This document shows, in pieces, positions 23,403-48,957 of a stretch of DNA of 64,000 nucleotides. The notes under the pieces were generated by a model, which was not told the origin of the DNA, did no database searches, and saw nothing but the letters and a program-made list of their open reading frames with translations. Both the position numbers and the translations under genes were made by a program. The stretch comes from an uncultured Lachnospiraceae bacterium (GTDB lineage Bacteria; Bacillota; Clostridia; Lachnospirales; Lachnospiraceae). The stretch's first letter is position 1. Each line of letters begins with the position of its first letter. The DNA lies in assembly GCA_934899185.1 (NCBI GenBank), contig CAKXYI010000002.1:327853-391852 (forward strand), in the 5' to 3' direction.

Positions 23403-23426
23403 AAGGCGAATTTCATAGAGAAATAA

Positions 23427-23616
23427 TTGGTGCCCTTCCAGGATGAGACAGGCTTGAGAAAGGGTTAAAAGGGAAACAGGTGAAATTCCTGTACGATCTC
23501 GTCACTGTGATTAGGGAGTGCGTTTCTTTTGTTTTTACGCCACTGATGCAAAGGCATTGGGAAGGTGAGAAACGCGTGATGATCTTTCAGCCAGGAAACC
23601 TGCCAGTTGTTTGGTA
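23427..23616 (+). promoter_or_regulatory. Cobalamin (B12) riboswitch aptamer
   Basis: All landmark segments appear in order: TTGGTGCCC, AGGGTTAAAAGGGAA, ACAGGTGAAATTCCTGTAC, TCGTCACTGTGA, the variable P7-P10 arm, GCCACTGATGCAAAGGCAT, TGGGAAGGTGAGAAACG, and the closing AGCCAGGAAACCTGCC (the B12 box). It precedes the cobaltochelatase gene and, by continuity, the whole cobalamin operon. Confidence 0.95.
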
Positions 23617-23717
23617 CAGGAATCATTCCGGATCACGAGGCATTGGTCGTACTGTTTTAAGTAATGCAAAACTGCTTTTTTTTGGTGTGCAGATTTTGGC
23701 TTGCATTAGGATTTGAT

Positions 23718-23827: not shown

Positions 23828-25411
23828 ATGAAAAAGAAAGTAATTTCACTTATGATGGTATGTATGCTGGCTGTTGGTCTTGCAACCGGTTGTGGCAACA
23901 AAGACACAGCAAAGACAGACAATACCACAAGCGATCAGGAAGCAGCAGATAAGGTGGCAGAGTTGATTGATGCCATTTATGTGCAGGAAAGAACAGACAA
24001 GACAGACGAGCAGTGCGAGGCCGCAAAAAAAGCATGGGATGCTTTGACAGATGCACAGAAGGAACTTGTCAGTGGTGAGAACGCAGACCCGGATTATTTT
24101 GGAAGAGATACAGGGGATGCTTCTAAGGATGATCCGTTGAATCAGGATGACATCGGTCATAATGAGATCCTCGTTGTCAGTTTTGGTACATCCTTTAATG
24201 ATAGCCGTACCGCGGACATCGGTGGTGTAGAAAAGGCGATTGCAGAAGCAAACCCGGGCTGGTCTGTAAGACGTGCCTTCACAGCACAGATCATCATCAA
24301 CCATATTCAGGCAAGAGATGGGGAAAAAATTGATAACGTAGAACAGGCTTTGGATCGTGCCGTAGACAATGGCGTTAAAAATCTTGTCATTCAGCCAACG
24401 CATTTAATGCATGGTGCGGAATACGATGAATTGATGGAAGCAGTCAAAGAATATGCGGATAAGTTTGATTCTGTTTCTGTTGCAGAGCCATTGCTCGGTG
24501 AAGTGGGAGCAGATGCAAAAGTAATCAATGCAGATAAAAAGGCAGTTGCAGAAGCAATCACAGCAGAGGCTGTAAAGACCGCTGAGTACGATTCTTTAGA
24601 GGCTGCCAAGGAAGACGGTGTCGCATTTGTATTTATGGGACATGGTACTTCTCATACAGCAAAGATTTCTTATTCTCAGATGGCTTCTCAGATGGCAGAC
24701 CTTGGTTATGATAATGTATTTATTGGAACAGTAGAGGGTGAGCCGGAAGAGACTGCTTGTGAAAACGTGATTGAGGCTGTCAAGGAAGCAGGCTACAAGA
24801 AAGTGATCCTTCGCCCACTGATGGTGGTAGCCGGAGATCATGCAAACAACGATATGGCCGGAGATGATGATGATTCATGGAAGAGTCAGTTTGAGGCTTC
24901 TAAGGCATTTGATTCTGTAGAATGTCAGATCGCAGGTCTGGGTGAGATCGAAACCATCCAGCAGCTTTATGTACAGCATACAAAAGATGCCATTACATCT
25001 TCAGGTGTAATGGTTGAGCCAGCAAACAATGCGTCTGCCGGCACATCTACGCTTGCTGACGGTACTTATCAGGTAAAATTTACAACCGACAGCAGTATGT
25101 TTCATGTCAATGAAGCAGACAATGGAATGGGCGAGTTGACCGTAAAAGACGGCAAGATGACCATTCACATTTCTTTGACATCAAAGAGGATCGTCAACCT
25201 GTATGAAGGTCTGGCAGCAGATGCCGAAAAGGACAGCAAGAATGTTCTGCAGCCGACCAATGATACCGTTACCTATAGCGATGGATCTACCGAAGAAGTC
25301 AACGGATTTGATGTGCCGGTACCATATCTGGACAAGGAATTTGATCTGGCACTTCTTGGAACCAAGGGAACCTGGTACGATCACAAGGTAAGTGTTGCAA
25401 GTCCACAGTAG
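23828..25411 (+). CDS. cbiK: Lipoprotein sirohydrochlorin cobaltochelatase (CbiK) with C-terminal beta-rich domain
   Basis: 527 residues from ATG 23828 (AGGAGG at 23816-23821). A lipoprotein signal (KKKVISLMMVCMLAVGLATGC, lipobox LATGC, Cys22) means it is exported. Residues ~112-390 are a CbiK-type chelatase: VVSFGTSFNDSR, VAEPLLGE (Glu220), MGHGTSH (His272) and VAGDHANNDM (His338), matching the two metal-binding histidines and glutamate of the family, which inserts Co2+ into sirohydrochlorin. Residues ~409-527 form a separate domain (ADGTYQVKF...LTVKDGKM...TWYDHKVSV) homologous to the next protein and, by eye, NEAT-like. Normal CbiK is ~260 residues and cytosolic; Desulfovibrio has a periplasmic CbiK. 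A role in extracellular cobalt loading, or in metal removal from a tetrapyrrole, is inference. Confidence 0.88.
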   Translation: MKKKVISLMMVCMLAVGLATGCGNKDTAKTDNTTSDQEAADKVAELIDAIYVQERTDKTDEQCEAAKKAWDALTDAQKELVSGENADPDYFGRDTGDASKDDPLNQDDIGHNEILVVSFGTSFNDSRTADIGGVEKAIAEANPGWSVRRAFTAQIIINHIQARDGEKIDNVEQALDRAVDNGVKNLVIQPTHLMHGAEYDELMEAVKEYADKFDSVSVAEPLLGEVGADAKVINADKKAVAEAITAEAVKTAEYDSLEAAKEDGVAFVFMGHGTSHTAKISYSQMASQMADLGYDNVFIGTVEGEPEETACENVIEAVKEAGYKKVILRPLMVVAGDHANNDMAGDDDDSWKSQFEASKAFDSVECQIAGLGEIETIQQLYVQHTKDAITSSGVMVEPANNASAGTSTLADGTYQVKFTTDSSMFHVNEADNGMGELTVKDGKMTIHISLTSKRIVNLYEGLAADAEKDSKNVLQPTNDTVTYSDGSTEEVNGFDVPVPYLDKEFDLALLGTKGTWYDHKVSVASPQ

Positions 25412-25441: not shown

Positions 25442-25867
25442 ATGGAAGTACAAAGAAAACAAGGACATATAAGACAGGGGCTGGCAGTCGGTCTATTATC
25501 TGTCTTTTTACTGCTTTCCTTATGGGGATGTGGTACCAAAAAAGATGATAGCCTGGCGGATGGCACTTACAATGTGGAAGTGACATTAGAAGGCGGCAGC
25601 GGACGGGCAACGGTCGTTTCCCCGACCCAGATCACGGTCAAGAATGGCAAGATCACTGCAACGATTATCTGGAGCAGCAGTCATTATGACTATATGTTGG
25701 TCGGTGGAGAAAAATATTTAAACGAGGCGGCAGACGGAGAGGGCTCGACCTTTACGATCCCGGTAGACAATCTGGATCAGCCCTTATCGGTTGTGGGTGA
25801 TACGACGGCTATGAGCCAGCCGCACGAGATTGAATATACCTTGTATTTTTCGTTAATAGACAATTAA
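25442..25867 (+). CDS. Small lipoprotein with the same beta-rich domain as the CbiK C-terminus
   Basis: 141 residues. Signal peptide with lipobox LWGC (Cys30). The rest is one domain beginning LADGTYNVEVTLEGGSGRAT, with ITVKNGKITATIIWSS, YDYMLVGGEKY, FTIPVDNLDQPLSVVGDT and a final EIEYTLYFS. These blocks align in order with the CbiK tail (ADGTYQV, LTVKDGKMTIHI, DVPVPYLDKEF, YDHKVSV), so the two share a fold. It lies between cbiK and the substrate-binding protein, suggesting it relays a metal or tetrapyrrole to the importer. Ligand unproven. Confidence 0.8.
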   Translation: MEVQRKQGHIRQGLAVGLLSVFLLLSLWGCGTKKDDSLADGTYNVEVTLEGGSGRATVVSPTQITVKNGKITATIIWSSSHYDYMLVGGEKYLNEAADGEGSTFTIPVDNLDQPLSVVGDTTAMSQPHEIEYTLYFSLIDN

Positions 25868-25886: not shown

Positions 25887-27035
25887 ATGAGATTGAGATG
25901 TAAAAGATGGATCAGTTTGCTACTTGCTGTGGTTATAATGCTGACTCTGGGCGCATGTGGCGTGCAGAGTCAGTCTGATACTACGGACAGGATAGCCTTT
26001 GACAGTTTAGAGAAGACAGGTCAGATGACGCTGGCGTATGCGACACAGTATCAGGTGGAATATTATGGAGATTATTCCCTGATCACCATAGGAGAAGACC
26101 AGCGTTTTCTATTGGTGCCGGAGGGCAAAGATGTGCCAAAGGATCTGCCGGAAGATGTCGTGGCGTTGCAGCAGCCCCTGGATAAGACCTATCTGGTGTC
26201 AACCTCAGTCATGGATCTGATCCGTCAGTTAGACCGCATATCCTATATCCGTTTGTCCGGCTCCAAGGCAAAGGACTGGTATATAACAGAAGCAAAAGAG
26301 GCGATCGAGTCAGGTGATATGATCTATGCCGGAAAGTACAGCGCCCCGGATTATGAGTGCATCTTAAACGAAGGTTGTAATCTTGCCATTGAAAATACCA
26401 TGATCTATCACACACCGGAAGTAAAAGAAAAACTGGAAGAACTGGGTATTCCGGTGCTGGTTGAGCGGTCATCTTATGAATCGCATCCCTTGGGCAGATT
26501 GGAATGGATCAAACTCTATGGTCTTTTGTTTGACGCATCCGATGAGGCAAACGCTTATTTTGACAGTCAGGTGGAACAGATCACGCCATTGCTTGATCAG
26601 GAAAATATCGGTAAGACGATTGCTTTTTTCTCGGTCAATTCCAGCGGAGCCATCAATGTCAGAAAGCCCGGAGATTACATTACCCAGATGATCACCATGG
26701 CAGGTGGCAATTATGCCTTGGCAGATGTGGTTCCTGAGGAAGAAAATGCACTTTCGACCATGAATATGCAGATGGAAGATTTTTATAATGCTGCACAAGG
26801 TGCAGATATCCTGATCTACAACAGTGCGATCGAAGGGGAGATCACAAGCATAGACGAACTTTTGGCAAAAAATAGTATGTTTGCACAGTTTGACGCCGTA
26901 AAAACAGGCAATGTTTATTGCACCGGCAAGAACTTCTTCCAAGAGTCGACCGGTATGGCAGAGTTTGTGGAGGACTTGCATAATGTTCTTGTGGATGCGG
27001 ATGCAGACCTGACCTATTTAGAAAAATTGAACTGA
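25887..27035 (+). CDS. FecB/BtuF-type ABC transporter substrate-binding lipoprotein
   Basis: 382 residues, lipobox LGAC (Cys24). Class III binding-protein fold: first lobe with RISYIRLSGSKAKDWYI, a linking helix, and second lobe ending NVYCTGKNFFQESTGMAEFV. IPVLVERSSYESHPLGRLEW is the region before the backbone helix. Such proteins bind cobalamins, hemes, siderophores or metals. Position under a B12 riboswitch and beside cbiK favours a corrinoid, tetrapyrrole or cobalt ligand. Confidence 0.85.
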   Translation: MRLRCKRWISLLLAVVIMLTLGACGVQSQSDTTDRIAFDSLEKTGQMTLAYATQYQVEYYGDYSLITIGEDQRFLLVPEGKDVPKDLPEDVVALQQPLDKTYLVSTSVMDLIRQLDRISYIRLSGSKAKDWYITEAKEAIESGDMIYAGKYSAPDYECILNEGCNLAIENTMIYHTPEVKEKLEELGIPVLVERSSYESHPLGRLEWIKLYGLLFDASDEANAYFDSQVEQITPLLDQENIGKTIAFFSVNSSGAINVRKPGDYITQMITMAGGNYALADVVPEEENALSTMNMQMEDFYNAAQGADILIYNSAIEGEITSIDELLAKNSMFAQFDAVKTGNVYCTGKNFFQESTGMAEFVEDLHNVLVDADADLTYLEKLN

Positions 27036-27046
27036 GGAAAAGACAG

Positions 27047-28051
27047 ATGAAACGATTTATCGTGACAATGACAGGCCTTGTCATAGCTTTGCTTTTGCTG
27101 GTGATCTGGAATGTTACTTCCGGCAGCGTGTCGGTGGATGGTATGCAGATGTGGCAGGTATTGCTCCGCCAGACAAGAGAAGGCGCCTTTTATCATATTG
27201 TGTGGGATATCCGCATGCCCCGCCTTCTGGCGGCTCTCTTTTTGGGAGGGGCTTTAGCGGTATCAGGATTCCTGCTCCAGACCTTTTTCCAAAATCCGAT
27301 TGCAGGCCCTTATGTGCTTGGTATTTCTTCCGGGGCGAAAATGTTAGTCGCCGTGGCAATGATTCTGTGTTTGGAAAGAGGCATGCAGATATCCTCCCTT
27401 GGAATGGTGGCGGCAGCCTTTATCGGCTCATTGCTTGCCATGGGATTTGTCCTGCTCTTATCCATGCGCGTACAGAAGATGTCGCTTTTGGTTGTGTGTG
27501 GTATCATGATCGGCTATATCTGTTCCGCTATCACAGATTTTATGGTGACTTTCGCGTCAGATTCCAATATCGTCAACCTGCACAACTGGTCTATGGGCAG
27601 TTTTTCCGGTACGGACTGGAAGGACGTAGGTATGATCGTTGTCTTAGTCACACTTACGGTCTTGGCTACCTTTTTCATGGCAAAACCGATCGGAGCATAT
27701 CAGATGGGAGAGGCATACGCCAGAAACATGGGCGTAAACATCCGAATGCTTCGCATCCTTTTGATCCTTTTATCCAGCCTTTTGTCCGGCTGCGTGACAG
27801 CCTTTGCGGGTCCCATTTCCTTTGTGGGAATTGCCGTCCCGCATCTGGTCAAGCAGGCGATGAAAACGGCAAGACCACTTTATCTGATCCCGGGATGCTT
27901 TCTGGGTGGTGCGGCCGTGACCCTTTTTTGTGATGGCATAGCCAGAAGTCTGTTTGCCCCGACAGAGGTCAGCATCAGTTCGGTGACTGCCGTGCTTTTG
28001 GTACCGGTCGTCATTCTTATGATGGTCAAAAGACAGGATGCACGGGCATAG
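27047..28051 (+). CDS. FecCD/BtuC-type ABC transporter permease
   Basis: 334 residues with about ten membrane helices. Family motifs: WDIRMPRLLAALFLGGALAV, FQNPIAGPYVLGISSGA, and the loop GPISFVGIAVPHLVKQ that contacts the ATPase. Works with the flanking binding protein and ATPase. Stop is 11 bases before the ATPase start. Confidence 0.92.
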   Translation: MKRFIVTMTGLVIALLLLVIWNVTSGSVSVDGMQMWQVLLRQTREGAFYHIVWDIRMPRLLAALFLGGALAVSGFLLQTFFQNPIAGPYVLGISSGAKMLVAVAMILCLERGMQISSLGMVAAAFIGSLLAMGFVLLLSMRVQKMSLLVVCGIMIGYICSAITDFMVTFASDSNIVNLHNWSMGSFSGTDWKDVGMIVVLVTLTVLATFFMAKPIGAYQMGEAYARNMGVNIRMLRILLILLSSLLSGCVTAFAGPISFVGIAVPHLVKQAMKTARPLYLIPGCFLGGAAVTLFCDGIARSLFAPTEVSISSVTAVLLVPVVILMMVKRQDARA

Positions 28052-28062: not shown

Positions 28063-29193
28063 ATGATGGAAGAACAATTCGAAGGCATCCGAGCCTGCAA
28101 TCTGGTCGTCGGCTATGAGGGCAGGAGCGTCTTAAAAGATGTAAACTTTTGGGTACGTTCGGGGCAGATTCTGACTTTGATCGGACCCAACGGATCCGGA
28201 AAGTCGACCCTTTTAAAAAGTATCACGAGACAACTGAAGACGATTGCCGGTCAGGTTTATCTGGCAGAGGGGACGATGGATGCCTATACAGATGCCGCGC
28301 TGGCAAAACAGATGGCTATGGTGACCACAGAGCGGATCTCGCCGGAACTGATGACTTGCCGTGATGTGGTCGCTACCGGACGATATCCCTATACCGGTAG
28401 ATTTGGGGTATTGGGAAAAGAAGACGAGGCAAAAGTACAGAGGGCGCTGGAAAGTCTGCATGCAATTGAGGTGGCAGACCGGCTGTTTGCCAAGGTCAGC
28501 GACGGACAAAGACAGCGCGTCATGCTTGCCAGGGCAATCTGTCAGGAACCAAGGATTTTGATTTTGGACGAGCCTACATCTTATCTGGATATGCATTACA
28601 AATTAGAGATTTTGCAATCTATACGAAATATGGTAAAAGAGGAAAATCTGGCGGTCGTCATGTCTTTGCATGAACTGGACCTAGCACAAAAGGTTTCAGA
28701 CATGGTTGCCTGTGTGGATGGAGACACGATAGCAAAGATCGGCAGACCGGAGGAAATCTTTTGCGGAGATACCATTGCATCCCTATATGGGGTCAGCCCC
28801 CAGGCTTATGATGTCGTATCCGGCAGCATGTTTTTACAAAGGGCAAAGGGAGAACCAAAGGTCTTTGTGATCGGGGGCGGCGGCAGTGGAATTGCAACCT
28901 ACTATGCCTTGCAGCGAGAGCAGATTCCCTTTGCGACAGGCATCTTATCAGAGGGGGATGTCGAGTATAAGGCGGCAAAGGCACTGGCAAGTGCGCTTGT
29001 GACAACGCCTGCTTTTTATCCGATCGAGATCCGACAGATGGCACAGGCGCGCAAATGGATTGATGCCTGCGACTACTGCATCTGTACGCTGGATGCTTTT
29101 GGACCACTCAATCAGGCAAATAAAGATCTGCTTTCCTATGCAAAAGAGCAGGGCAAATGGATCAAAGAGGGAGAAAAACCATGGCAAAAGTAA
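28063..29193 (+). CDS. FecE/BtuD-type ABC ATPase with C-terminal Rossmann-like domain
   Basis: 376 residues, about 120 longer than a usual FecE. Residues 1-255: Walker [13 protein letters not shown]-loop region, signature [14 protein letters not shown] (VSDGQ instead of LSGGQ), Walker [13 protein letters not shown] and H-loop SLHELD. Residues ~265-370: a glycine-rich turn [17 protein letters not shown] and then [17 protein letters not shown], which look like a small nucleotide-binding domain. I recall the same tail on cobalamin-locus ATPases of other Clostridia but know of no assigned role. ATG 28066 is an alternative start. The 3' end overlaps cobQ by 13 bases. Confidence 0.88.
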
Positions 29194-30707
29194 TTATGGT
29201 ACAGGGAACCATGTCAAATGCGGGGAAAAGTATGCTGGTCGCAGGGCTTTGTCGTGTCTTCGCTCAGGATGGCTACCGGGTGGCTCCCTTTAAGTCACAG
29301 AATATGGCACTCAATTCCTTTATCACCAAGGAAGGTCTGGAGATGGGGCGAGCTCAGGTCATGCAGGCGGAGGCGGCAGGCATAGAGCCGGGGGTAGACA
29401 TGAATCCTATTCTCCTAAAGCCTACTAACGACCATGGCTCACAGGTAATCGTGGCGGGAAAAGTCCTTGGTAATATGGAAGCGAGAGATTATTTCTTTTA
29501 CAAAAAAAATCTGCTGCCGGATATCGTAGCAGCCTTTCGGCGTTTGGAAGAAAAGGCGGATATCATTGTGATCGAGGGTGCCGGAAGCCCGGCGGAGATC
29601 AATCTGAAGGAAAATGATATCGTCAATATGGGGCTGGCACATCTGGTGGATGCTCCGGTGCTGCTGGTGGGAGATATCGATCGTGGCGGTGTCTTTGCCC
29701 AACTGCTTGGTACCATGATGCTTTTGACCGAGGAAGAAAAGCAGCGGGTCAAGGGATTGGTCATCAATAAATTTCGCGGGGATGTCACCATCCTGGATCC
29801 GGGCATTGCTATGCTGGAAGAAAAAGCAGGTGTGCCGGTGGTCGGTGTCCTGCCTTATATGTCCGTGACTCTGGATGATGAGGACAGCCTTGCAGAGAGC
29901 CTTTTGCCAAAGGACATGGATCTGATCAATATCGGGGTTGTGCGCCTGCCACGCCTGTCCAATTTTACAGATTTTTCAGTCCTAGACCAGATCGCAGGGG
30001 TCAGCGTTCATTATGTGCGCGATCCGCATGAGATCGAGAAGATGGATATGGTCATTTTGCCGGGAACCAAGAATACCATGGGAGATCTGGCATGGATGCG
30101 GGAAAGCGGAATGGAAAGTGCGGTCAAGAAATTTGCCCAGTATGGACCGGTCTTTGGCATTTGTGGCGGTTATCAGATGCTGGGACAAAGAATCACGGAT
30201 CCGGAGGGGCTTGAGAATGCCATCAAAGCAGACGATTCAGAAGGAATGCGGGGATTGGAACTGCTTCCCATGGAGACAGTCTTAAAATCGGAAAAAGTCC
30301 GCACACAGACCAGTGGAAGTATGGAGATCACGGAAGGCGCCCTTGCAGGATTTTCTTGTCACCGAATCCATGGCTATGAGATCCATATGGGAGAGACCCA
30401 GGCGGTCGATGCCATCAAGCCTTTGTGCTATCTGGATCAGAAGAATGATGTGGTCTGTCAGGAAAGAGACGGCGGGCAAAGAGACAATGTTTACGGCACA
30501 TATGTGCATGGTATTTTTGATGATAAGGATGTGGCATATGACCTGTGCAGGCTTTTGACCAAAAGGAAGGGGTTGACCCTGCAAGCAGAGGCTGACACGG
30601 ATTATCAGTCATTTAAGGAGAGTCAGTATGATCTGCTGGCAGAGGGCATACGAAAGAGCATGGATATGGATGCCGTCTATGCCATGTTACAGGATGCCGC
30701 TATTTAG
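29181..30707 (+). CDS. cobQ: Cobyric acid synthase (CobQ/CbiP)
   Basis: 508 residues from ATG 29181 (GAGGGA upstream); it starts inside the ATPase gene. Amidates the b, d, e and g side chains of adenosylcobyrinic acid a,c-diamide using glutamine and ATP. N-terminal P-loop-like [13 protein letters not shown], the switch region MALNSFIT, synthetase core [11 protein letters not shown], and a C-terminal class I-like amidotransferase with nucleophile [11 protein letters not shown] and [11 protein letters not shown]. Confidence 0.95.
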
Positions 30708-30720
30708 AGAGAAAGAAAAG

Positions 30721-31812
30721 ATGCAGACAGAACAGATTAGAATCGATGAGATCTTAGAAAAACAGCATAAATTGATGCCTTGGGATCATGACATTTTCCA
30801 TAAGATCATGGAGCATTGGGATGGCATTGCAAAGCCTTTGGATGGCATGGGACAGTTTGAACCCATGCTGGCAAAGATAGGTGCCATACAAAAGACGATT
30901 GAGCCAAGGTTTGACGCGGGACGATTACTTGTCTTTTGCGCGGATAACGGCGTTGTTGCGGAGGGGATCAGCCAATCCCCACAGGAAGTGACGGCGATCT
31001 GTGCCAAAAATATTGCCGCAGGGCAGACGGCGGTCGGTCGTATGGCAAGCCTTGCGGGCTGTCAGATCCGGGTCTATGATGTTGGGATCAATACAAGGGA
31101 GACGATTTGCAATGTCATTGATAAAAAAGTAGCCCCCGGCACAAGAAATTTTTACAAAGAGCCGGCGATGGATGAGATACAGATGCGGCAGGCTCTGCAA
31201 TGCGGACTGGATGCAGTCTATGCCTGCAAGTGTGATCATCTCGACTATGTCTGCATAGGGGAAATGGGTATTGGTAATACGACGACTTCCAGTGCGGTCG
31301 CAGCAGCTCTTTTACAGAAAAAGGCAGAGGATGTGACAGGTCGCGGGGCAGGGCTGGATGATGTAAAGTTACAAAAAAAGATTCGGGTCATTCAGGAGAC
31401 CATCGAAAGATGTGATCTCTATCATGCGTCTGCAACAGAAGTCTTAGCCGGTGTGGGCGGATTTGACATTGCAGCCATGGCAGGAGCCTGTATGGGGGCA
31501 GCCGTCTACGGGATTCCACTGATCTTAGATGGTTTGATCAGTATGGTGGCCGCCCTGGTAGCAGAAAGGTTATTGCCCGGAAGCAAAGACTTTTTGATCG
31601 CGTCCCATGCCAGCCGGGAGCCGGCAACGATAGCGCTTATGAAAGAACTTGCCTTGACACCGGTCATTTATGCGGATATGGCACTGGGCGAGGGTACCGG
31701 AGCCATGATGCTGCTGCCTATGCTTGCCATGGCAAAGGCGGTTTATGATGAGACCAATTCTTTTTCGGATGCCGGTGTAGAGACCTATCATAGATACGGA
31801 GATAAGATATGA
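30721..31812 (+). CDS. cobT: Nicotinate-nucleotide-dimethylbenzimidazole phosphoribosyltransferase
   Basis: 363 residues from ATG 30721, preceded by AGAGAAAGAAAAG; the frame extends upstream inside cobQ but without credible start. Activates the lower-ligand base to its alpha-ribotide. Typical CobT signatures: LLVFCADNGVVAEGISQSP, MGIGNTTTSSAVAAALL, GRGAGLDD, FLIASHASREPA and the catalytic-glutamate region LGEGTGAMMLLPML. No bluB or bza genes for base synthesis are present. Overlaps cobU by 4 bases. Confidence 0.95.
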   Translation: MQTEQIRIDEILEKQHKLMPWDHDIFHKIMEHWDGIAKPLDGMGQFEPMLAKIGAIQKTIEPRFDAGRLLVFCADNGVVAEGISQSPQEVTAICAKNIAAGQTAVGRMASLAGCQIRVYDVGINTRETICNVIDKKVAPGTRNFYKEPAMDEIQMRQALQCGLDAVYACKCDHLDYVCIGEMGIGNTTTSSAVAAALLQKKAEDVTGRGAGLDDVKLQKKIRVIQETIERCDLYHASATEVLAGVGGFDIAAMAGACMGAAVYGIPLILDGLISMVAALVAERLLPGSKDFLIASHASREPATIALMKELALTPVIYADMALGEGTGAMMLLPMLAMAKAVYDETNSFSDAGVETYHRYGDKI

Positions 31813-32369
31813 TCGTAGTCGTCATTGGCGGAAGTGGAAGCGGCAAGTCGGCATACGCCGAAAAATGTCTGCTTGCAATGGAAGCAGAAAAGAAACATTA
31901 TATTGCGACGATGCGCGTCTTTGACGAAGAAGGAGAAAAGCGTGTAGAAAAGCATCGGACTATGCGCAGGGAAAAGGGATTCCTTACCATAGAAAAGCCG
32001 ACAGACTTAGGAGAGATTTCCCTAGGTGCAGGGGATGCCTGGATGTTGGAATGTGTCTCTAATCTTCTGGCAAATGAGATGTTTACGGAAGATGGCATAA
32101 GGGATGAAAAAGAGACGGTAGACAAGATTTTAAAGGATATAGGCAGTCTAATAGAGCAGACTGCAGATGGCGTGATCGTCAGCAATAATATCTTTGAAGA
32201 TGGAGGCAACTATGACGAAACCATGGCATCTTATATCAAGGCGCTGGGCTGCATCAATCAAGCATTGGCAGCCATGGCAGATGAAGTCATAGAAGTGGTG
32301 GTCGGTATTCCGGTCACACTAAAGAGTAAGCAGGAGGAAAGTGAGGGCGGACAGATATGCGAAAAATAG
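31809..32369 (+). CDS. cobU: Adenosylcobinamide kinase / guanylyltransferase (CobU), first paralogue
   Basis: 186 residues. P-loop GGSGSGKSAYAE at the N-terminus and the YIATMRVFDEE...VEKHRTMR segment, where the histidine corresponds to the guanylylated His of Salmonella CobU. The C-terminal ADEVIEVVVGIPVTLK is typical. The usual NEVG motif is altered to SNNIFEDGG. It phosphorylates adenosylcobinamide and converts it to the GDP form. A second CobU-like gene follows two genes later. Confidence 0.85.
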   Translation: MIVVVIGGSGSGKSAYAEKCLLAMEAEKKHYIATMRVFDEEGEKRVEKHRTMRREKGFLTIEKPTDLGEISLGAGDAWMLECVSNLLANEMFTEDGIRDEKETVDKILKDIGSLIEQTADGVIVSNNIFEDGGNYDETMASYIKALGCINQALAAMADEVIEVVVGIPVTLKSKQEESEGGQICEK

Positions 32370-33124
32370 CAAAAGCCATAGGCGTAGCCTTTTCCATGTA
32401 TTCTAAGATACCTATGCCGCGTTTTGTATGGGCATCGGAAGATATGCGCTACCATCTGCTCTTTTTTCCTTGGATCGGTGCTGTGATCGGGGGACTGGAG
32501 ATCGGCTGGTATTATCTGGCAGGCTATCTGGGAGTGGGAAAAATCCTTTCTGTGGCGCTGGCGGTTTTTTTGCCGCTCTTTGTGACCGGGGGCTTTCATA
32601 TGGATGGCTTTATGGATACCAAGGATGCCCTAAGTTCCTATCAGGGAAAAGAGAAAAAACTGGAGATTTTAAAAGATCCCCATATCGGTGCCTTTGCCGT
32701 CATCCATTTGCTTTCTTATCTCTTGCTTGCCCTTGGATTTGCTTCAGTCATTGAGGGAACAAAGGCTGTGACCGCAGTCAGTGCTGCCTTTTTCCTCAGT
32801 CGCTGTCTCAGTGGGCTTTCCGTTATCTATTTTCCGGGAGCAAAAAAGGAGGGCAGCCTTTATACCGAGGCAGATACTTCCGGTGCAAAGGTCGTATCCA
32901 TCGGGCTGATGATACAGATGCTTCTTGTCGTGACCTTCCTTTTTATCTATAGCGGTATGTATGGCGTTTTGGTCACGGCAGCCTGTCTATTGATGTTTTT
33001 GTATTATTATCTTATGAGCCGGCGCCAGTTTGGCGGGATCACGGGAGATCTGGCAGGCTATTTTGTCTGTATGGCAGAATTGTGGTCTGTGATTGTGGTC
33101 GGCATCTATCTTGTGTTAAAGTAA
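32357..33124 (+). CDS. cobS: Adenosylcobinamide-GDP ribazoletransferase (cobalamin synthase)
   Basis: 255 residues, polytopic membrane protein. Characteristic N-terminus FSMYSKIPMP, FFPWIGAVIGGLE, the acidic motif GGFHMDGFMDTKDAL (metal/substrate site) and LSRCLSGLSV. Joins adenosylcobinamide-GDP with alpha-ribazole (phosphate) at the membrane. Starts 13 bases inside cobU. Confidence 0.94.
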   Translation: MRKIAKAIGVAFSMYSKIPMPRFVWASEDMRYHLLFFPWIGAVIGGLEIGWYYLAGYLGVGKILSVALAVFLPLFVTGGFHMDGFMDTKDALSSYQGKEKKLEILKDPHIGAFAVIHLLSYLLLALGFASVIEGTKAVTAVSAAFFLSRCLSGLSVIYFPGAKKEGSLYTEADTSGAKVVSIGLMIQMLLVVTFLFIYSGMYGVLVTAACLLMFLYYYLMSRRQFGGITGDLAGYFVCMAELWSVIVVGIYLVLK

Positions 33125-33136
33125 AAGGAGATTGCA

Positions 33137-33553
33137 ATGGAAAAAAGGCTGGAACTCGTCATTGGTGGCAGGGCGCAGGGGAAAAGTGCATATGTTAAAA
33201 AAAAGTACCCGCACGCCGTCTGTCTGGATGAAAGGGATCTTACAGAGGGTGGCAGACTGCCGATCAAGGATCAGGCACAGGATATCATCCTATGGGATCA
33301 TTTTCATCTTTGTGTCAGAATCTGGCAGCAGGCGGGTATGACGATGGATGAGATGCAGGATAGGATAGAGGAGAGTTGCAGGGCATGCAAACATCTTGTC
33401 ATCATCAGCGATGAGGTAGGAAATGGCGTCGTGCCATTGCAAAAAGAAGACCGCATCTATCGGGATCTGGTCGGAAATCTTTTGATCGGGATTGCAAGTA
33501 AAGCAGAAAGGGTGGATAGAATCATATGTCAGATACCACAACAAATCAAGTAG
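33137..33553 (+). CDS. Short CobU-like protein, second paralogue
   Basis: 138 residues. N-terminal P-loop VIGGRAQGKSAYVKKKY and C-terminal ISDEVGNGVVPLQKEDRIYRD, the motif that follows the CobU fold in the normal enzyme and that is changed in the first paralogue. It lacks the guanylyl-acceptor His segment and is ~45 residues shorter than CobU. It may be a partner, a specialised kinase half or a decaying duplicate. AAAGGAG precedes the ATG; its end overlaps cobC by 28 bases. Confidence 0.7.
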   Translation: MEKRLELVIGGRAQGKSAYVKKKYPHAVCLDERDLTEGGRLPIKDQAQDIILWDHFHLCVRIWQQAGMTMDEMQDRIEESCRACKHLVIISDEVGNGVVPLQKEDRIYRDLVGNLLIGIASKAERVDRIICQIPQQIK

Positions 33554-34167
33554 AGATCGTTTTGATTCGTCATGGAAAAACAGAAGGAAATAAGGAAAAA
33601 CGCTATATCGGCAGGACAGACCAGCCACTTTCCGAGGAGGGGATCGCCGGTATCAAAGAAGGGCTGGGAAGGTATCCATCCGTGGAAAAGGTCTATGCCA
33701 GCCCAATGAAGCGTACCAGACAGACCGCTGAACTGATCTATCCGGGACAGACACCGGACCTCATTGACGGTCTGCGCGAGATGGATATGGGTGTCTTTGA
33801 GGGAAAGAACCATGCCGAATTAAAGAACAGACCATCCTATATTTTATGGGTGGCAACCAGAGGAAAGACGGGCATCCCGGAGGGCGAGTCCATGAGGGAC
33901 TTTGGAAAGCGCACCATGGATGCTTTGACACAGGTACTTGGTGATATGCAGGCAGAGGAAATCAAAAAAGCGGCGGTTGTAGCCCATGGTGGTACGATCA
34001 TGTCCATCGTTTCCCAACTGGCTGATGATGACTACTATAAATATATGGTAAACAATGGCGCAGGATTTCGTCTGACGCTGGATGGCGACGGCAAACTGCT
34101 GGATCTCAAGCCGCTCTTAAAAGAGGATAACTGCATGCAGGATGCTTTAGAGGAGCTGGAAGATTGA
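33526..34167 (+). CDS. cobC: Histidine phosphatase, probable alpha-ribazole-5'-phosphate phosphatase
   Basis: 213 residues. Phosphohistidine signature VLIRHGKTEGN, then ASPMKRTRQTAELI, the acid region LREMDMGVFEGKNHAEL and second histidine VVAHGGTIMS. In the cobalamin context this class removes the 5'-phosphate from alpha-ribazole or cobalamin phosphate. Specific role is inferred from position between cobU-like and cbiB. Confidence 0.82.
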   Translation: MSDTTTNQVEIVLIRHGKTEGNKEKRYIGRTDQPLSEEGIAGIKEGLGRYPSVEKVYASPMKRTRQTAELIYPGQTPDLIDGLREMDMGVFEGKNHAELKNRPSYILWVATRGKTGIPEGESMRDFGKRTMDALTQVLGDMQAEEIKKAAVVAHGGTIMSIVSQLADDDYYKYMVNNGAGFRLTLDGDGKLLDLKPLLKEDNCMQDALEELED

Positions 34168-35144
34168 TATATCACATGATCGCCTTTGTGGGCGGCTTTA
34201 TCCTTGACCTGATCTTGGGAGATCCCTACAATTTTCCACATCCGGTCCGTCTGATCGGTCGTCTGATCTCTGCCATTGAAAAGCACGATCTGGGCGAAGG
34301 GGATGCAAAAGCCTTATCCGGAGAACAAAAAAGAAGTTATGGGCGCAGACTGGTTATCATCGTCTGTGTGACGACCCTTTTGCTTACGGCGTTTATCCTG
34401 TTTTTGGCATATGGGATCCATCCGATAGTGGGATGTCTGGTGGAATTGATCCTGACCTATCAGACCCTGGCACTCCGCTGTCTTTGCAAGGAGAGCAAAA
34501 AAGTATATATATGCCTGCGGGATAAGACCTTAGAAGATGCCAGATATGCGGTATCGATGATCGTTGGCAGGGATACCCAGAATTTAAGCCCGACCGGGGT
34601 TGCCAAGGCTGCCATTGAGACGGTCGCGGAGAATACCTCGGATGGTGAGATCGCACCTATGCTTTATCTGGCTTTGGGCGGACCTATCCTGGGACTTACC
34701 TACAAGGCGATCAATACCATGGATTCCATGTTGGGCTATAAGAATGACCGCTATCTGGATTTTGGCAGATGCGCGGCAAAACTGGATGATCTGGTCAACT
34801 TTCTTCCGGCGAGGATCAGTGCCTTATGCCTTTGGGTGGCATCGGCTTTCTTAGGCAAAGACTATGATGCAAAAAGGGCATGGCAGATCTATCGCAGAGA
34901 CCGCTATCAGCACGCCAGTCCAAATTCGGCACAGACAGAAGCCATGGCAGCGGGATCCCTTGGTATCCGGCTTGCGGGAGACGCTTCTTATTTTGGAAAG
35001 ATCGTAAAAAAGCCAACGCTGGGGGATGCGACGCGCGAGATCGTCTATGAGGATATCCTGCGCATGAACCGGCTGGCATACGGGGCGGCTGTCTTTTGCC
35101 TGCTCCTGTGCCTTGGAATCATGGGGCTGATCCTGGCATTTTAA
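34164..35144 (+). CDS. cbiB: Adenosylcobinamide-phosphate synthase (CbiB)
   Basis: 326 residues, membrane protein. Start TTG 34164 overlaps the cobC stop by 4 bases and has AGGAGC 8 bases upstream; ATG 34176 is too far from it. Motifs: LDLILGDPYNFPHPVRLIGR, VGRDTQNL, AAIETVAENTSDGEIAPML and YKAINTMDSMLGYKNDRY. Attaches aminopropanol (phosphate) to adenosylcobyric acid. Confidence 0.94.
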   Translation: MIYHMIAFVGGFILDLILGDPYNFPHPVRLIGRLISAIEKHDLGEGDAKALSGEQKRSYGRRLVIIVCVTTLLLTAFILFLAYGIHPIVGCLVELILTYQTLALRCLCKESKKVYICLRDKTLEDARYAVSMIVGRDTQNLSPTGVAKAAIETVAENTSDGEIAPMLYLALGGPILGLTYKAINTMDSMLGYKNDRYLDFGRCAAKLDDLVNFLPARISALCLWVASAFLGKDYDAKRAWQIYRRDRYQHASPNSAQTEAMAAGSLGIRLAGDASYFGKIVKKPTLGDATREIVYEDILRMNRLAYGAAVFCLLLCLGIMGLILAF

Positions 35145-35173
35145 GAACATAGCAGAAGATGGGAAGGAATGGC

Positions 35174-36238
35174 ATGCACGGAGGAGATTGTTATCGCAAT
35201 GAAGTGAATATGGATTTTTCGATCAATGTCAATCCGCTGGGCATACCGGAGGAGGTGGCGGATGCCATGCAGCAGGCACTGATGCAAGCCATGGTCTACC
35301 CGGATCCCCAGTGTCAGGCACTGCGTCAGGCGATCGGCAGCGTCTATCAAAAAGACCCAGCATGTATTGTCTGTGGCAATGGGGCATCTGACCTGTTGCT
35401 TGCCTTTGTCCGTGCTTTTATGCCAAGGAAGGCACTCCTGCCGGCACCGGGCTTTTCGGGCTATGCCTATGCCTTAAAAAGTATTGGATGTCATATTGTA
35501 TTATTTGATACCAAAGAGGACGAGGATTTTGCCCTGTCCGAGGCGTTTTTGGATCGCATTAGATCAGAAGCACCGGATCTGGTTATCCTGACCAATCCCG
35601 GCAATCCCAGCGGGCATCTGCTGTCACAAGAATTTTTAAAAAAAGTGGCGGGGCTTTGCCGGCATATGGATATTCGGCTTTTGATCGATGAGTGCTTTAT
35701 CGAACTGACCGGAGAAGGCAAAGACAATTCTTTCTTAAAGGCATCTTCCGGAACAAAGAATATCTTTATCTTACAGGCGCTGACAAAGAGCATGGCGATC
35801 CCGGGCATCCGTTTGGGCTATCTGTTTTGCCCGGAGAAGCAGGATGCCAAAAAAGTGCAGGAACAGGTGAGCGAATGGAATGTTTCTGTCATTGCACAGA
35901 GGGCAGGCATTGCAGGTATGCAGGTCTTGGCGGATGGGACTTATCTGTCGCAGACAAGGCAGCTTCTGGAAAGGGAAAGAGAGTATCTTACGCAGGGCTT
36001 GCAGGCTCTTGGCGCAAAAGTCTATCCGGGGACAGCCAATTTCCTTTTGTTTTATGAAGATAGCATAGACTGGTATGCCGCCTTATTAAAAGAAAAGATA
36101 CTGATCCGGGATTGCAGTGATTATGCCGGGCTCTCCAAGGGATTTTATCGCATAGCGATCCGCAGGCGGGAAGAAAATCAGGTTCTGGTGGAGACCATGC
36201 AGGCAGTCAAAGAGGGGAAGGAAGTCAGATGGAAATAG
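35174..36238 (+). CDS. cobD: L-threonine-O-3-phosphate decarboxylase (CobD), PLP enzyme
   Basis: 354 residues from ATG 35174 (GGGAAGGA 6-14 bases upstream), which gives the family N-terminus HGGDCYRNEVNMDFSINVNP; ATG 35159 is an alternative. Class I/II aminotransferase fold with ILTNPGNPSGHLL, LLIDECFIEL and the PLP lysine in LTKSMAIPGIRLGY. Produces aminopropanol phosphate for CbiB, its upstream neighbour. Its end overlaps cbiC by 10 bases. Confidence 0.9.
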   Translation: MHGGDCYRNEVNMDFSINVNPLGIPEEVADAMQQALMQAMVYPDPQCQALRQAIGSVYQKDPACIVCGNGASDLLLAFVRAFMPRKALLPAPGFSGYAYALKSIGCHIVLFDTKEDEDFALSEAFLDRIRSEAPDLVILTNPGNPSGHLLSQEFLKKVAGLCRHMDIRLLIDECFIELTGEGKDNSFLKASSGTKNIFILQALTKSMAIPGIRLGYLFCPEKQDAKKVQEQVSEWNVSVIAQRAGIAGMQVLADGTYLSQTRQLLEREREYLTQGLQALGAKVYPGTANFLLFYEDSIDWYAALLKEKILIRDCSDYAGLSKGFYRIAIRRREENQVLVETMQAVKEGKEVRWK

Positions 36239-36873
36239 AAATCGTAAAGCCGCAGGAGATTGAGAAGCGGAGTTTTGAGATCATTGAGGAAGAATTGCAA
36301 GAGAGGGGGATCGTTCTGCCGGAAAAAGAAGTACCGATCACCAAACGTGTCATCCATACCAGTGCTGATTTTTCCTACGCCAAGACCATGACCTATTCGC
36401 CGGAAGCCATCGAACAGGCGTTGGAACTGATCAAAGGTGGGGCACATATTGTGACCGATACCAATATGGCTAAGGCTGGTATCAATAAGAAGACACTGGC
36501 TCGTTTTGGCGGACAGGTACACTGCTTTATGGCAGATGAAGCTGTGGCAAAAGAGGCAAAGGAACGCGGTGTGACGCGCGCGGTTGTCAGCATGGAGACG
36601 GCGGCAAGACTGCCCGGACCTGTCATCTTTGCTATAGGCAATGCGCCGACAGCACTGATCGAACTGCATGAGATGATAGAGCAGGGAGTCTATGTCCCGG
36701 CATTTATCATTGGCGTTCCGGTTGGGTTTGTCAATGTGGAGGCGGCAAAAGAATTGTTCCTTGACAAAGATGTGCCATATATCATCAACCGGGGGCGCAA
36801 GGGTGGAAGCAACATTGCGGCTGCCATCTGCAATGCCTTGCTTTATCTGGCAAGCAACAATATCAGAGATTAG
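36229..36873 (+). CDS. cbiC: Cobalt-precorrin-8 methylmutase (CbiC)
   Basis: 214 residues. KRVIHTSADFSYAKT carries the catalytic histidine; GGAHIVTDTNMAKAGI, FAIGNAPTAL, PAFIIGVPVGFVNVEAAKE and NRGRKGGSNIAAAICNAL are family motifs. Moves the C11 methyl group to C12, giving cobyrinic acid. Confidence 0.95.
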   Translation: MEIEIVKPQEIEKRSFEIIEEELQERGIVLPEKEVPITKRVIHTSADFSYAKTMTYSPEAIEQALELIKGGAHIVTDTNMAKAGINKKTLARFGGQVHCFMADEAVAKEAKERGVTRAVVSMETAARLPGPVIFAIGNAPTALIELHEMIEQGVYVPAFIIGVPVGFVNVEAAKELFLDKDVPYIINRGRKGGSNIAAAICNALLYLASNNIRD

Positions 36874-36884
36874 AGGGTAGGTCT

Positions 36885-38009
36885 TTGGAAGAAAAACTGC
36901 GAAATGGATTTACAACAGGCTCCTGTGCGGCAGCCGCGGCGAAGGCAGCCTGCTATATGCTTTTGACCGGGAGAAAAAAAGAAAAGATTGATATCATTAC
37001 GCCCAAGGGCATTACCTTTCATGCACATATCGTAGATATTTTGCGTGGTGAGAAGGCAGTGCAGTGTGCGGTCATAAAAGATGGCGGGGATGATCCCGAC
37101 ATTACGACCGGGGCACATGTGGTGGCAAAGGTTTCTTTTTTGGAGGGGCAAGAGGCAGGCGCAGGGGGCAGGATCCTGATCGATGGCGGGATCGGTGTCG
37201 GTCGTGTGACCAAGCCGGGACTGGATCAGCCGGTCGGAAATGCGGCAATCAATCATGTGCCGAGGGAGATGATCGAAAGGGAAGTACGAGAGGTTTGTCA
37301 GGTTTTGGATTATCACGGAGACCTTGCGGTGGAGATTTCCGTGCCGGAGGGGCTGCAACTGGCAGAATCCACTTTTAATCCCAGACTGGGGATTCTGGGC
37401 GGCATATCTATCTTGGGAACCAGCGGGGTCGTAGAGCCTATGAGTGCACAGGCACTCAAAGACACCATTGCGGTCGAACTGCGGCAGAAAAAGGCTTTGG
37501 GACAAAAAGCCGTGGCAGTTTCTCCGGGAAATTACGGTCTGGATTTTATGAAAAAGACCTATGACTATGATCTGGATCGCAGTGTCAAGTGCTCAAATTT
37601 TATTGGAGATACCATAGATATGGCAAAGCAGATGGGATTTGAGGCAATGCTTTTGACCGGGCACATCGGTAAACTCATCAAACTGTCCGGCGGCATGATG
37701 AACACCCATTCCAAAGAGGGCGACTGTCGTATGGAACTCTTAGCGTCGGCTGCCATTTATGCAGGCTGCCAGACCAAGACGGCAAAAGATCTTCTGGATG
37801 CTGTCACGACGGAGGAAGGCGTCAAGATCCTGTCGGAGGCGGGCATCTTGGAGGCGACCATGGAGCGTGCCATGGAGCGGATCTTATTTTACTTAAGAAA
37901 GCGCGCGGGCGATGGAATGCAGATCGAATGTATGATGTATGCGACAGACTATGGGCTTTTGGCAGAAAGTCCCGGAGCACAAAGTCTTTTGCAGGAACTG
38001 AAAGGATAA
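36885..38009 (+). CDS. cbiD: Cobalt-precorrin-5B C1-methyltransferase (CbiD)
   Basis: 374 residues. Start TTG 36885 with GAGGGTAGG upstream; no ATG is near. Motifs: LRNGFTTGSCAAAAAKAA, KDGGDDPDITTGAH, GVGRVTKPGL, FNPRLGILGGISILGTSGVV and GHIGKLIKLSGGMMNTHS. SAM-dependent methylation at C1 in the anaerobic pathway. Confidence 0.95.
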   Translation: MEEKLRNGFTTGSCAAAAAKAACYMLLTGRKKEKIDIITPKGITFHAHIVDILRGEKAVQCAVIKDGGDDPDITTGAHVVAKVSFLEGQEAGAGGRILIDGGIGVGRVTKPGLDQPVGNAAINHVPREMIEREVREVCQVLDYHGDLAVEISVPEGLQLAESTFNPRLGILGGISILGTSGVVEPMSAQALKDTIAVELRQKKALGQKAVAVSPGNYGLDFMKKTYDYDLDRSVKCSNFIGDTIDMAKQMGFEAMLLTGHIGKLIKLSGGMMNTHSKEGDCRMELLASAAIYAGCQTKTAKDLLDAVTTEEGVKILSEAGILEATMERAMERILFYLRKRAGDGMQIECMMYATDYGLLAESPGAQSLLQELKG

Positions 38010-38013
38010 AAGA

Positions 38014-38772
38014 ATGGTTTATTTTGTGGGAGCAGGATGCGGTGCACCGGACTTGATCACGGTGCGCGGGAAAAATCTATTGGAGCAGGCAGATGTGATC
38101 ATTTATGCCGGATCGCTGGTAAACCCGGCACTCTTAACTTATGCCAGAAAAGATGCAAAGATCCATAACAGTGCCTATATGACCTTGGAGGAGGTGCTTG
38201 CCGTCATTGAGGATGCCGAGAAAGAGGGGCTTGATACGGTGCGCCTGCACACCGGAGAACCCAGCATTTATGGGGCGGTGCGGGAGCAGATGGATCGATT
38301 GGACGATCTGGGGATTTCCTATGAGTCCTGTCCGGGTGTCAGTGCCTGCTTTGGAGCGGCGGCAGGTCTGAATCTGGAATTTACCCTGCCGGAAGTGTCC
38401 CAGACCCTCATCATCACAAGGCAGGAAGGCAAGACGAGCGTACCGGACAAAGAAAAGATCCAGAGTCTTGCGGCACATCAAGCGAGCATGGCAATCTATC
38501 TGAGTGCCGGTATGCTAGATATTCTGCGGGAAAATCTGATCGCTGGTGGCTATTCTGCCGATACGCCAGCGGCACTGATCTATAAGGCGACCTGGCCGGA
38601 GGAGAGATCTTTTGTCTGCACTGTGGATACCCTGCCACTGGTAGCAAAGGAAAATCATATTACAAAGACTGCCATGGTATTGGTGGGACAGGTCATTGCG
38701 CACAGCAATTATGCCAGATCCCGCCTTTATGCGCCGGACTTTGAAACCGAGTATCGGAGGAAAAAGCAATGA
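38014..38772 (+). CDS. cbiF: Cobalt-precorrin-4 C11-methyltransferase (CbiF)
   Basis: 252 residues, tetrapyrrole methylase fold. YFVGAGCGAPDLITVRGK, ADVIIYAGSLVNP, HTGEPSIYGAVREQ and PGVSACFGAAAGL. Starts 4 bases after cbiD and overlaps cbiG by 4 bases. Confidence 0.95.
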   Translation: MVYFVGAGCGAPDLITVRGKNLLEQADVIIYAGSLVNPALLTYARKDAKIHNSAYMTLEEVLAVIEDAEKEGLDTVRLHTGEPSIYGAVREQMDRLDDLGISYESCPGVSACFGAAAGLNLEFTLPEVSQTLIITRQEGKTSVPDKEKIQSLAAHQASMAIYLSAGMLDILRENLIAGGYSADTPAALIYKATWPEERSFVCTVDTLPLVAKENHITKTAMVLVGQVIAHSNYARSRLYAPDFETEYRRKKQ

Positions 38773-39791
38773 TCCTAGGGGTGATGACCTTTTCTAAGCA
38801 GGGACAAAAGACGGCAGAAGATCTTTTTGAAAAATGTAAGGAGATCAATTCCTTGTATTATGATGGGGATATGCCGCGGGAGGCATGGATCAGGGACAAG
38901 TTTTCCTATCACATACCGCTTCTTTTTGTGGGAGCAGCGGGGATTGCTGTGCGTCTGATCGCACCTTTTGTCGAGGATAAATTGCAGGACAGTGCGGTGA
39001 TCGTCATGGATCAGAGGGGCAGACACGTTATTCCCCTTTTGTCCGGTCATATGGGCGGTGCCAATGAGATCGCGAAAAATTTAGCAGACCGGATTGGGGC
39101 AGAGGTTATTCTGACAACGGCGACCGACGTGGAAGATCTCTTTGCCGTGGATGTCTTTGCAAGGCGAAACGGCTTTCGCATTCGTGACCGGGCTGGCATC
39201 CGCCGGATCTCCCAAAAACTGTTGGAAGGTGAAAAAATTCGGCTTGCCATTGATCCTGCGATTACCTTTTTAAAAGAGGATCTGCCGGAAGGACTGCATC
39301 TGATAGAGGTGGGCGATAGGAATGTTGATCTGTGGATCGGCTGTAGTCCCTTGGAGCAGGAAACAGACCTCCAACTGATCTATAAGCCCTATGTTCTTGG
39401 CATGGGCTGTAAGAAGAAAAAGCCTTTTGAAGCCTTGCAGACATTTGCCTTGGAAGAATTGCAAAAGGAAGGAATTGCCATGGATCAGGTGGCTGTCCTT
39501 GCAAGTATTGATTTAAAGCAAGGAGAAATGGGCTTGGAGACTCTGGCTTGCTTTTATCATCTGCCCTTTTATACCTATGGAGCAGATGACTTACAAGAGG
39601 TGGAAGGGCAGTTTTCCGAGTCTGCCTTTGTCTCACAGGTGACAGGTGTGTCCAATGTTTGTGAGCGGGCGGCATTGGCATGTGCAGGGCAAGGTGGGCG
39701 ACTTTTGGTGAAAAAGCAGGCAAAGGATGGTATGACCTTTGCTTTGGCAAAGCGGATCCCGCGGATCCAAACTTGGCAGACGTGCGTATAA
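38769..39791 (+). CDS. cbiG: Cobalt-precorrin-5A hydrolase (CbiG)
   Basis: 340 residues. N-terminal domain with FVGAAGIAVRLIAPFVEDK, DQRGRHVIPLLSGHMGGANE and TTATDVEDLFAVDVFA; C-terminal domain with VLGMGCKKKKPFEAL and ASIDLKQGEMGLETL. Opens the delta-lactone of precorrin-5A and releases acetaldehyde. Confidence 0.94.
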   Translation: MILGVMTFSKQGQKTAEDLFEKCKEINSLYYDGDMPREAWIRDKFSYHIPLLFVGAAGIAVRLIAPFVEDKLQDSAVIVMDQRGRHVIPLLSGHMGGANEIAKNLADRIGAEVILTTATDVEDLFAVDVFARRNGFRIRDRAGIRRISQKLLEGEKIRLAIDPAITFLKEDLPEGLHLIEVGDRNVDLWIGCSPLEQETDLQLIYKPYVLGMGCKKKKPFEALQTFALEELQKEGIAMDQVAVLASIDLKQGEMGLETLACFYHLPFYTYGADDLQEVEGQFSESAFVSQVTGVSNVCERAALACAGQGGRLLVKKQAKDGMTFALAKRIPRIQTWQTCV

Positions 39792-39812
39792 AAGTAAGAA
39801 GAAAGGCAAGAC

Positions 39813-42637: not shown

Positions 42638-42652
42638 AGGATGATTTAATAT

Positions 42653-48956: not shown

Positions 48957-48957
48957 T

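Follow-up and report, generated by a model that had tools for sequence, protein, structure and literature searches.

An exported CbiK-family lipoprotein with a NEAT-like tail and its candidate role in tetrapyrrole salvage for B12 synthesis

B12 synthesis is usually drawn as a pathway that runs entirely inside the cell, and the CbiK of Salmonella is cytosolic. Why, then, would a CbiK-family protein of an uncultured Lachnospiraceae bacterium carry an export signal? The gene lies on the forward strand at 23828-25411 of the window, by which we mean the whole stretch of 64,000 nucleotides that was analysed. Its open reading frame of 527 residues (CbiKlp) begins with a signal peptide and a lipobox ending in Cys22, followed by an N-terminal helical domain (approximately residues 30-110), a CbiK domain (114-391), a linker and a tail domain, NEAT1 (409-527). 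An alternative in-frame ATG is present at 23807, and AGGAGG directly precedes 23828. A sequence-only reading of this DNA had proposed the signal peptide and lipobox, and the proposal is borne out by the invariance of Cys22 in all 53 aligned sequences. One could also suppose that the start codon was called wrongly and that this is a cytosolic CbiK of the usual kind, an interpretation that we reject because of the same invariant cysteine. Judged by its export signal, CbiKlp is probably a membrane-anchored, outward-facing CbiK-family protein. The region from about residue 30 to 110, which the sequence-only reading did not mention, is mostly helical in the structure model; prediction of the full-length protein gave a pLDDT of 86.1.

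Does the exported domain resemble a working chelatase? The Pfam profile PF06180 covers residues 114-389 with an E of 9e-73, its score of 245 bits exceeding the cut-off of 26.2. When the CbiKlp model is ranked against known structures, Salmonella CbiK (1QGO) comes first, with a TM-score of 0.92 by target length, and together with 2XVX/2XVZ and the fourth-placed FetB of P. gingivalis (9B86) it stands ahead of all else. The NCBIfam equivalog model for sirohydrochlorin cobaltochelatase (NF047852) yields 196.6 bits, below its cut-off of 400, and CbiKlp is therefore filed as an exported CbiK-family protein and not as the equivalog. Alignment to 1QGO pairs residues 89, 145, 175 and 207 of the Salmonella protein (Glu, His, Glu and His) with E198, H272, E303 and H338 of CbiKlp, a set kept in full by 157 of 157 long-type domains and by 48 of 55 other CbiK domains. 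The metal site had earlier been assigned to Glu220, His272 and His338. Both histidines stand in the 1QGO alignment, but Glu220 is ruled out as a metal ligand, as it is not paired with the 1QGO metal site and is Glu in 15 of the 55 other CbiK domains, against 150 of the 157 long-type ones. By whole-domain sequence, fold and aligned metal ligands CbiKlp belongs to class II CbiK, and catalysis is predicted.

The tail had been judged NEAT-like by eye, and structure prediction (pLDDT 89.6) together with structure comparison of residues 409-527 agrees in predicting a NEAT fold, its nearest folds being NEAT proteins, many of them solved with heme. The sequence score against PF05031 is 18.4 bits, under the Pfam cut-off of 32.8, and 38 of 69 sequences match NEAT at E <=0.1 while missing the curated Pfam score. 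Heme ligation in NEAT domains relies on a Tyr motif, YxxxY. Judged by sequence, NEAT1 bears a near-invariant WYD on its C-terminal strand, close to the C-terminus, and it differs from the NEAT hemophores (IsdX1/IsdX2, IsdC, Hbp2 and Shp) in this motif and in scoring under the Pfam cut-off. A second NEAT-like lipoprotein (NEAT2, or NEATlp), with a lipobox read by eye, is encoded on the same strand at 25442-25867 (PF05031, E 5e-5, 24.2 bits, likewise under the cut-off of 32.8); 21 of 47 relatives match NEAT at E <=0.01.

Which pathway might such a pair of lipoproteins serve? A cobalamin riboswitch aptamer (RF00174; 108.9 bits, E 2.3e-26, full model 1-189) lies upstream on the same strand at 23411-23621, and it probably represses the system under ample B12. 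The stretch leading from riboswitch to gene (23590-23700) folds no more stably than its shuffles (z -0.11). RF00174 also precedes the exported CbiK in 37 of 40 loci scanned (18/20 and 19/20), always on the same strand and at a distance of 162-847 bases ahead of the CbiK match, compared with 1 of 20 cytosolic CbiK loci, a contrast that is only supportive because cytosolic genes may sit deeper inside operons. Downstream of NEAT2, on the same strand, follow genes for a BtuF-type substrate-binding protein (25887-27035; PF01497, E 8.9e-23), a BtuC-type permease (27047-28051; PF01032, E 1.6e-76; top NCBIfam model BtuC, under cut-off) and a BtuD-type ATPase (28063-29193; ABC_tran, E 5.1e-32; top NCBIfam model "corrinoid ABC transporter ATPase", under cut-off). 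The BtuFCD set is complete, as PF01497, PF01032 and an ABC ATPase occur together, and with the NCBIfam models under cut-off a corrinoid is its candidate substrate. The ATPase ends in an extension of about 115 residues that could be Rossmann-like, with a weak DAO match at 266-333.

The remainder of the operon, again on the forward strand, consists of late cobamide genes at 29157-36238 (CbiP, CobT, CobU, CobS, a second CobU-like gene, CobC, CbiB and CobD, several of them under the NCBIfam cut-off) and of corrin-ring genes at 36229-44730 (CbiC, D, F, G, H, a JET fusion, A and L), which represent the anaerobic pathway from cobalt-factor II on. Among the genes of 29157-44730, profile searches turned up neither a cytosolic chelatase nor any hem gene or cbiM, and no TonB-dependent receptor was recognised among the operon genes scanned. 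The second CobU-like gene (33137-33553) matches the C-terminal part of CobU only, a full-length CobU being encoded at 31809-32369. An amidohydrolase gene (PF01979) at 44779-46125 directly follows CbiL, and type I restriction-modification genes (hsdM, hsdS and hsdR) lie at 46848-53248, downstream of the cobamide genes.

Is this arrangement shared by other bacteria? At least 7995 candidates pass E 1e-10 in a protein search with CbiKlp, among those sharing most words with it. A genome scan supplied relative loci, of which the best 80 of 595 confirmed were compared; by their titles most belong to Lachnospiraceae or to further Firmicutes, and isolated loci to Eggerthellaceae and Treponemataceae. 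In 58 of these best 80, genes for NEAT2, BtuF, BtuC and BtuD all lie on the CbiK strand and no further than 9 kb downstream. The others comprise eight loci with less than 5.2 kb of DNA downstream, seven with some partners in another arrangement or at another distance, and seven without any NEATlp or BtuFCD match in the DNA compared (ten of the 80, if three with short flanks are counted). Frames containing CbiK, collected over 211 DNA pieces that overlap in part, read N-CbiK-NEAT1 in 77 cases, N-CbiK in 60 and CbiK alone in 50, cytosolic proteins included. The same pieces hold NEAT fusions of the form CbiK-NEAT1-NEAT2 with or without N (18), NEAT1-NEAT2 (43) and NEAT2-BtuF (56) and, more rarely, NEAT1-NEAT2-BtuF (6), NEAT1-BtuF (1) and NEAT1-N-CbiK (1). 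Taken together, these overlapping fusions spell CbiK-NEAT1-NEAT2-BtuF. We read them as evidence for a physical relay among the predicted domains, although the order of transfer is not given by them.

If the chelatase is exported, what has become of the cytosolic one? From the family of G006, a genome available as a single contig of 3.19 Mb, 200 genomes were sampled evenly and searched with profiles for CbiK, HemC, CbiD and CbiM, which matched in 119, 85, 120 and 72 genomes, respectively; the classing covered 197 of the 200, the other three being matched by none of these profiles. To class the 149 CbiK matches as exported or cytosolic, N-termini were read in 100 stretches, while 46 matches, including one fragment and that of G150 (a long match in a short frame), were classed as cytosolic by frames of at most 291 residues; a 44-residue CbiK fragment in G102 was left out. 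This survey of CbiK homologues for the export signal, which the sequence-only reading had suggested, places exported CbiKs in 69 of the 200 genomes (53 of a long and 16 of a short type). Cytosolic CbiKs, a class that includes fragmentary and divergent matches and a non-functional gene of G006, occur in 72, and both kinds in 22. A CbiM-type match, as opposed to a NikM-type one, was defined as strong and with its end no later than profile position 202, and was present in 35 genomes, 12 genomes with weak matches only being counted as without.

Nearly all genomes with an exported CbiK (68 of 69) have CbiD. When the 120 genomes with CbiD are split by HemC, the 47 without it comprise 36 with the exported CbiK only, one with both kinds, three with the cytosolic kind only and seven with neither, compared with 11, 20, 41 and one, respectively, among the 73 with HemC. 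Regrouped by chelatase, the exported-only genomes with CbiD (also 47 in number) include 11 with HemC, none with a CbiM-type match and eight with any strong CbiM or NikM match; these eight are of the NikM (nickel) type, which might carry cobalt, and weak CbiM matches in four were not counted. The corresponding figures for the 65 CbiD-positive genomes with a cytosolic CbiK are 61, 33 and 37. The CbiM-type contrast between the two groups has a Fisher p of 2.7e-10, and the association of cytosolic CbiK with HemC across the 120 CbiD-positive genomes one of 5e-17, both values ignoring relatedness. HemC is missing in 37 of the 68 CbiD-positive genomes with an exported CbiK. All 37 are without a strong CbiM-type match and 36 are without a second, cytosolic-type CbiK. 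The 37th is G006, where a CbiK-like gene of 263 residues (L112) has lost both catalytic histidines and is ruled out as a working enzyme; none of the 37 shows, by sequence, a working cytosolic CbiK.

These losses do not trace to a single event. On a rapidly built tree of 68 exported CbiKs (one per genome, G102 left out), the HemC state requires 19 changes, compared with 22.6 for shuffled labels, and at least five are forced by supported branches; the state is near scattered, and the losses therefore recur rather than mark one clade. In a larger tree of 93 rows, for which the 124 long-type sequences were thinned at random to about 40 while retaining that of the window, the long exported type forms a supported group nested among short exported ones. 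Two members of this group (L119 and L197) have no readable signal, and the automatic labels of this tree list L167 as cytosolic despite an N-terminus of lipoprotein-like appearance.

How much of the front of the pathway is gone was followed in 40 genomes out of the best 80 of 595 loci, picked mostly for long contigs. CbiK is present in all 40 (with a second match in 11) and CbiD in 39, compared with HemC in 13 (one partial) and HemB in 11; HemC is thus missing in 27. Strong SirC-type matches (PF13241, E <1e-15) occur in 14 genomes, two of them without HemC. CbiX as a hidden cytosolic chelatase is ruled out, since every listed PF01903 match in the 40 genomes is the CbiK gene itself. A cell that has corrin-ring genes but neither HemB nor HemC makes no ring, even from ALA or porphobilinogen, and so a formed tetrapyrrole must be imported, or else the corrin genes would be idle. 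With the sole chelatase facing outward and fused to NEAT domains of the porphyrin-carrier type, these being fused in turn to BtuF, and with CbiM unseen, the simplest account is therefore that cobalt is inserted outside and the cobalt-ring imported.

We give a probability of roughly 60% to this reading, according to which CbiKlp would be an outward-facing cobaltochelatase that loads a scavenged ring, the cobalt-ring then being imported by BtuFCD. As to substrate, catalytic direction, hand-over and transported species, we infer the following. CbiKlp would take up a scavenged, unmetallated tetrapyrrole of the sirohydrochlorin type outside the cell and would insert Co(II) into it on the outer face; the product would be handed from the NEAT1 tail to the NEAT2 lipoprotein and on to BtuF. 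BtuCD would import it as cobalt-factor II, from which CbiL and the products of the remaining operon genes would finish the corrin. In many relatives such a system would take the place of the early enzymes HemB, HemC, SirC and cytosolic CbiK, and also of CbiM, the cytosolic cobalt importer; where both chelatases occur, salvage would proceed alongside synthesis.

Several counts run against this scheme. The main misfit is posed by the 11 of 47 exported-only genomes that keep HemC, so that a ring could be made inside; HemC may serve siroheme synthesis there, or SirC may insert the cobalt. In addition, 20 genomes with CbiD and HemC hold both chelatases, and 10 of the 47 with CbiD and without HemC have no exported CbiK (seven have no CbiK match and three the cytosolic type only). 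The NikM-type matches in eight exported-only genomes, the seven loci of the best 80 without NEATlp or BtuFCD, and the NCBIfam and NEAT scores under cut-off also count against it. Finally, CbiL, which would be needed for imported cobalt-factor II, scores over its cut-off of 163.25 in 24 of the 40 genomes and reaches 155.6 and 142.6 in two more, but 14 (G004, G007, G009, G010, G012, G013, G016, G019, G023, G029, G032, G038, G039 and G040) are without a match near the cut-off. Thirteen of these 14 are also without HemC, and their other corrin genes remain. They have three to five TP-methylase matches each, against 5, 5, 5 and 6 in four CbiL-positive genomes; among the three with five, the count includes a gene broken into two parts in G019 and a fragment in G029, and in G009, which has HemC, a fifth gene in a 535-residue frame on the HemC contig. 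Our guess is that the CbiL-less genomes import a ring that is already methylated at C20.

The sequence-only reading had offered three uses for a chelatase on the outer face. Cobalt loading of a scavenged tetrapyrrole is favoured by the riboswitch, by CbiD in 68 of 69 genomes and by the missing HemC and HemB. Heme dechelation fits less well, and so does pure cobalt storage or import, which is disfavoured because it leaves the missing HemC and HemB unexplained. The riboswitch, NEAT2, the fusions involving BtuFCD and the lost early pathway do not figure in the sequence-only reading. Perhaps CbiKlp instead strips the metal from a scavenged heme, siroheme or other metallo-tetrapyrrole so that the iron is used, with the NEAT domains binding heme, as the many heme-bound structures among the nearest folds of the tail would suggest. 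P. gingivalis offers a precedent in FetB and IhtB, which we take to be one protein and which resembles CbiKlp in being an exported CbiK homologue with an ABC importer; the sequence of FetB matches CbiKlp with an E of 2.1e-34, and 9b86, the FetB structure, is fourth in the fold ranking. The available part of one paper presents IhtB as a putative heme-binding lipoprotein with CbiK homology and the ABC partners IhtC-E, with a presumed role in obtaining iron from heme (PMC10913741), whereas FetB inserts manganese into protoporphyrin according to the accessible text of a review (PMC13402209). As far as these excerpts go, the protein is read in terms of iron-from-heme or Mn-protoporphyrin chemistry, not B12 supply. 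The Iht system also uses a TonB receptor, and FetB, with its 293 residues, is too short to include a NEAT domain; the window locus, unlike Iht, lies behind a cobalamin riboswitch and shares its operon with cbi genes. Given this riboswitch, here and at 37 of 40 exported loci, CbiD in all but one of the 69 exported genomes, and the co-loss with HemC and CbiM, dechelation for iron appears unlikely, though a siroheme-to-cobalt swap would merge it with extracellular cobalt loading.

It is also conceivable, if quite unlikely, that CbiKlp and the NEAT domains serve only to capture cobalt, as Co(II) or in a complex, for import by BtuFCD in place of CbiM, the ring being metallated inside by another enzyme or spontaneously. 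The lack of a confident CbiM-type importer in all 47 exported-only genomes and the retention of HemC in 11 of them would agree with this. However, the other 36 have no HemC and hence no internal ring to metallate, metal capture needs neither a full chelatase site nor NEAT domains of the porphyrin-binding type, and uncatalysed insertion is reported, in the part of the source available, to be negligible at buffered cobalt (PMC7689651). Just as improbable is a non-catalytic CbiK fold serving as surface receptor that passes ready-made corrinoids such as B12 or cobinamide to BtuFCD. The BtuFCD neighbourhood and the cobalamin riboswitch would suit such a receptor, but all four metal ligands are kept, CbiM and HemC are lost together, and a single exported CbiK of 69 is found in a genome without CbiD, where a receptor should be at least as useful. 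Very unlikely, finally, is storage of cobalt or tetrapyrrole, or another non-corrin role, with the HemC/CbiM pattern as a by-product of lineage or assembly gaps: many genomes are MAGs and the P values ignore kinship, but the contrast arises within one sample, recurs on the gene tree and holds in the single-contig G006, so that assembly gaps are unlikely as its sole cause.

Extracellular cobalt loading would also bear on an older problem. Tetrapyrrole precursor salvagers were defined by Shelton et al. (2018) as keeping the corrin pathway with its early steps lost, and salvage of 5-aminolevulinate was verified in three species (PMC6461909); the part of that paper available to us names no uptake machinery. 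The relatives described here differ from such ALA salvagers in needing a formed ring, because HemB and HemC are missing. The window itself retains the corrin-ring genes that a precursor salvager keeps, and its own genome is presumably without hem genes. P. gingivalis is reported to be without the steps to precorrin-2 (Roper 2000, as cited in the available part of PMC6461909), and corrin genes without ring synthesis have been a puzzle since that report. A literature search over titles and the starts of abstracts did not find a NEAT-CbiK system. The odds seem to us evenly balanced that this is an undescribed and widespread B12 route of gut Firmicutes, in which cobalt insertion, the committed anaerobic step, would take place outside on a foreign ring and a chelatase-NEAT-NEAT-BtuF relay would import the cobalt-ring, already C20-methylated in CbiL-less genomes. 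If so, the missing uptake route of hem-minus precursor salvagers would be supplied, and the B12 enigma of P. gingivalis, which has an exported CbiK too, would find an answer. Formed tetrapyrroles would then be shared goods in gut and rumen, genome-based calls of producers and auxotrophs would need revision, and exported CbiK proteins labelled as heme or iron proteins would deserve a second look.

Other chelatases show parts of this architecture. The periplasmic CbiK-P of Desulfovibrio vulgaris (2XVX-2XVZ) has a cytosolic twin and is linked to heme transport. The title of one cited reference speaks of two CbiKs in distinct roles. Like CbiKlp, CbiK-P is exported, with 33% identity over the domain, and 2XVZ was co-crystallised with cobalt according to the entry titles, but its chain of 269 residues leaves no room for a NEAT domain. 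Salmonella CbiK, the best structural match, has the metal site in common with CbiKlp, but its 264-residue chain has neither spacer domain nor NEAT. HmuS of Bacteroidota is likewise an envelope protein of a chelatase family (CobN-like) acting on scavenged heme, but belongs to Class I, has no CbiK similarity reported in the excerpts available and harvests iron from heme. Exported CbiKs themselves vary in build. Some lipoproteins carry two CbiK modules in a chain of about 750-1100 residues, sometimes with NEAT1 between or after them (P0001, P0002, P0007-P0009, P0021, L076, L078, L053 and L073). The exported-type CbiKs of L183 and L199 have a cleavable-looking signal peptide without a lipobox, and at L171 (genome G141) two exported CbiK genes stand in tandem, each preceded by its own cobalamin riboswitch.
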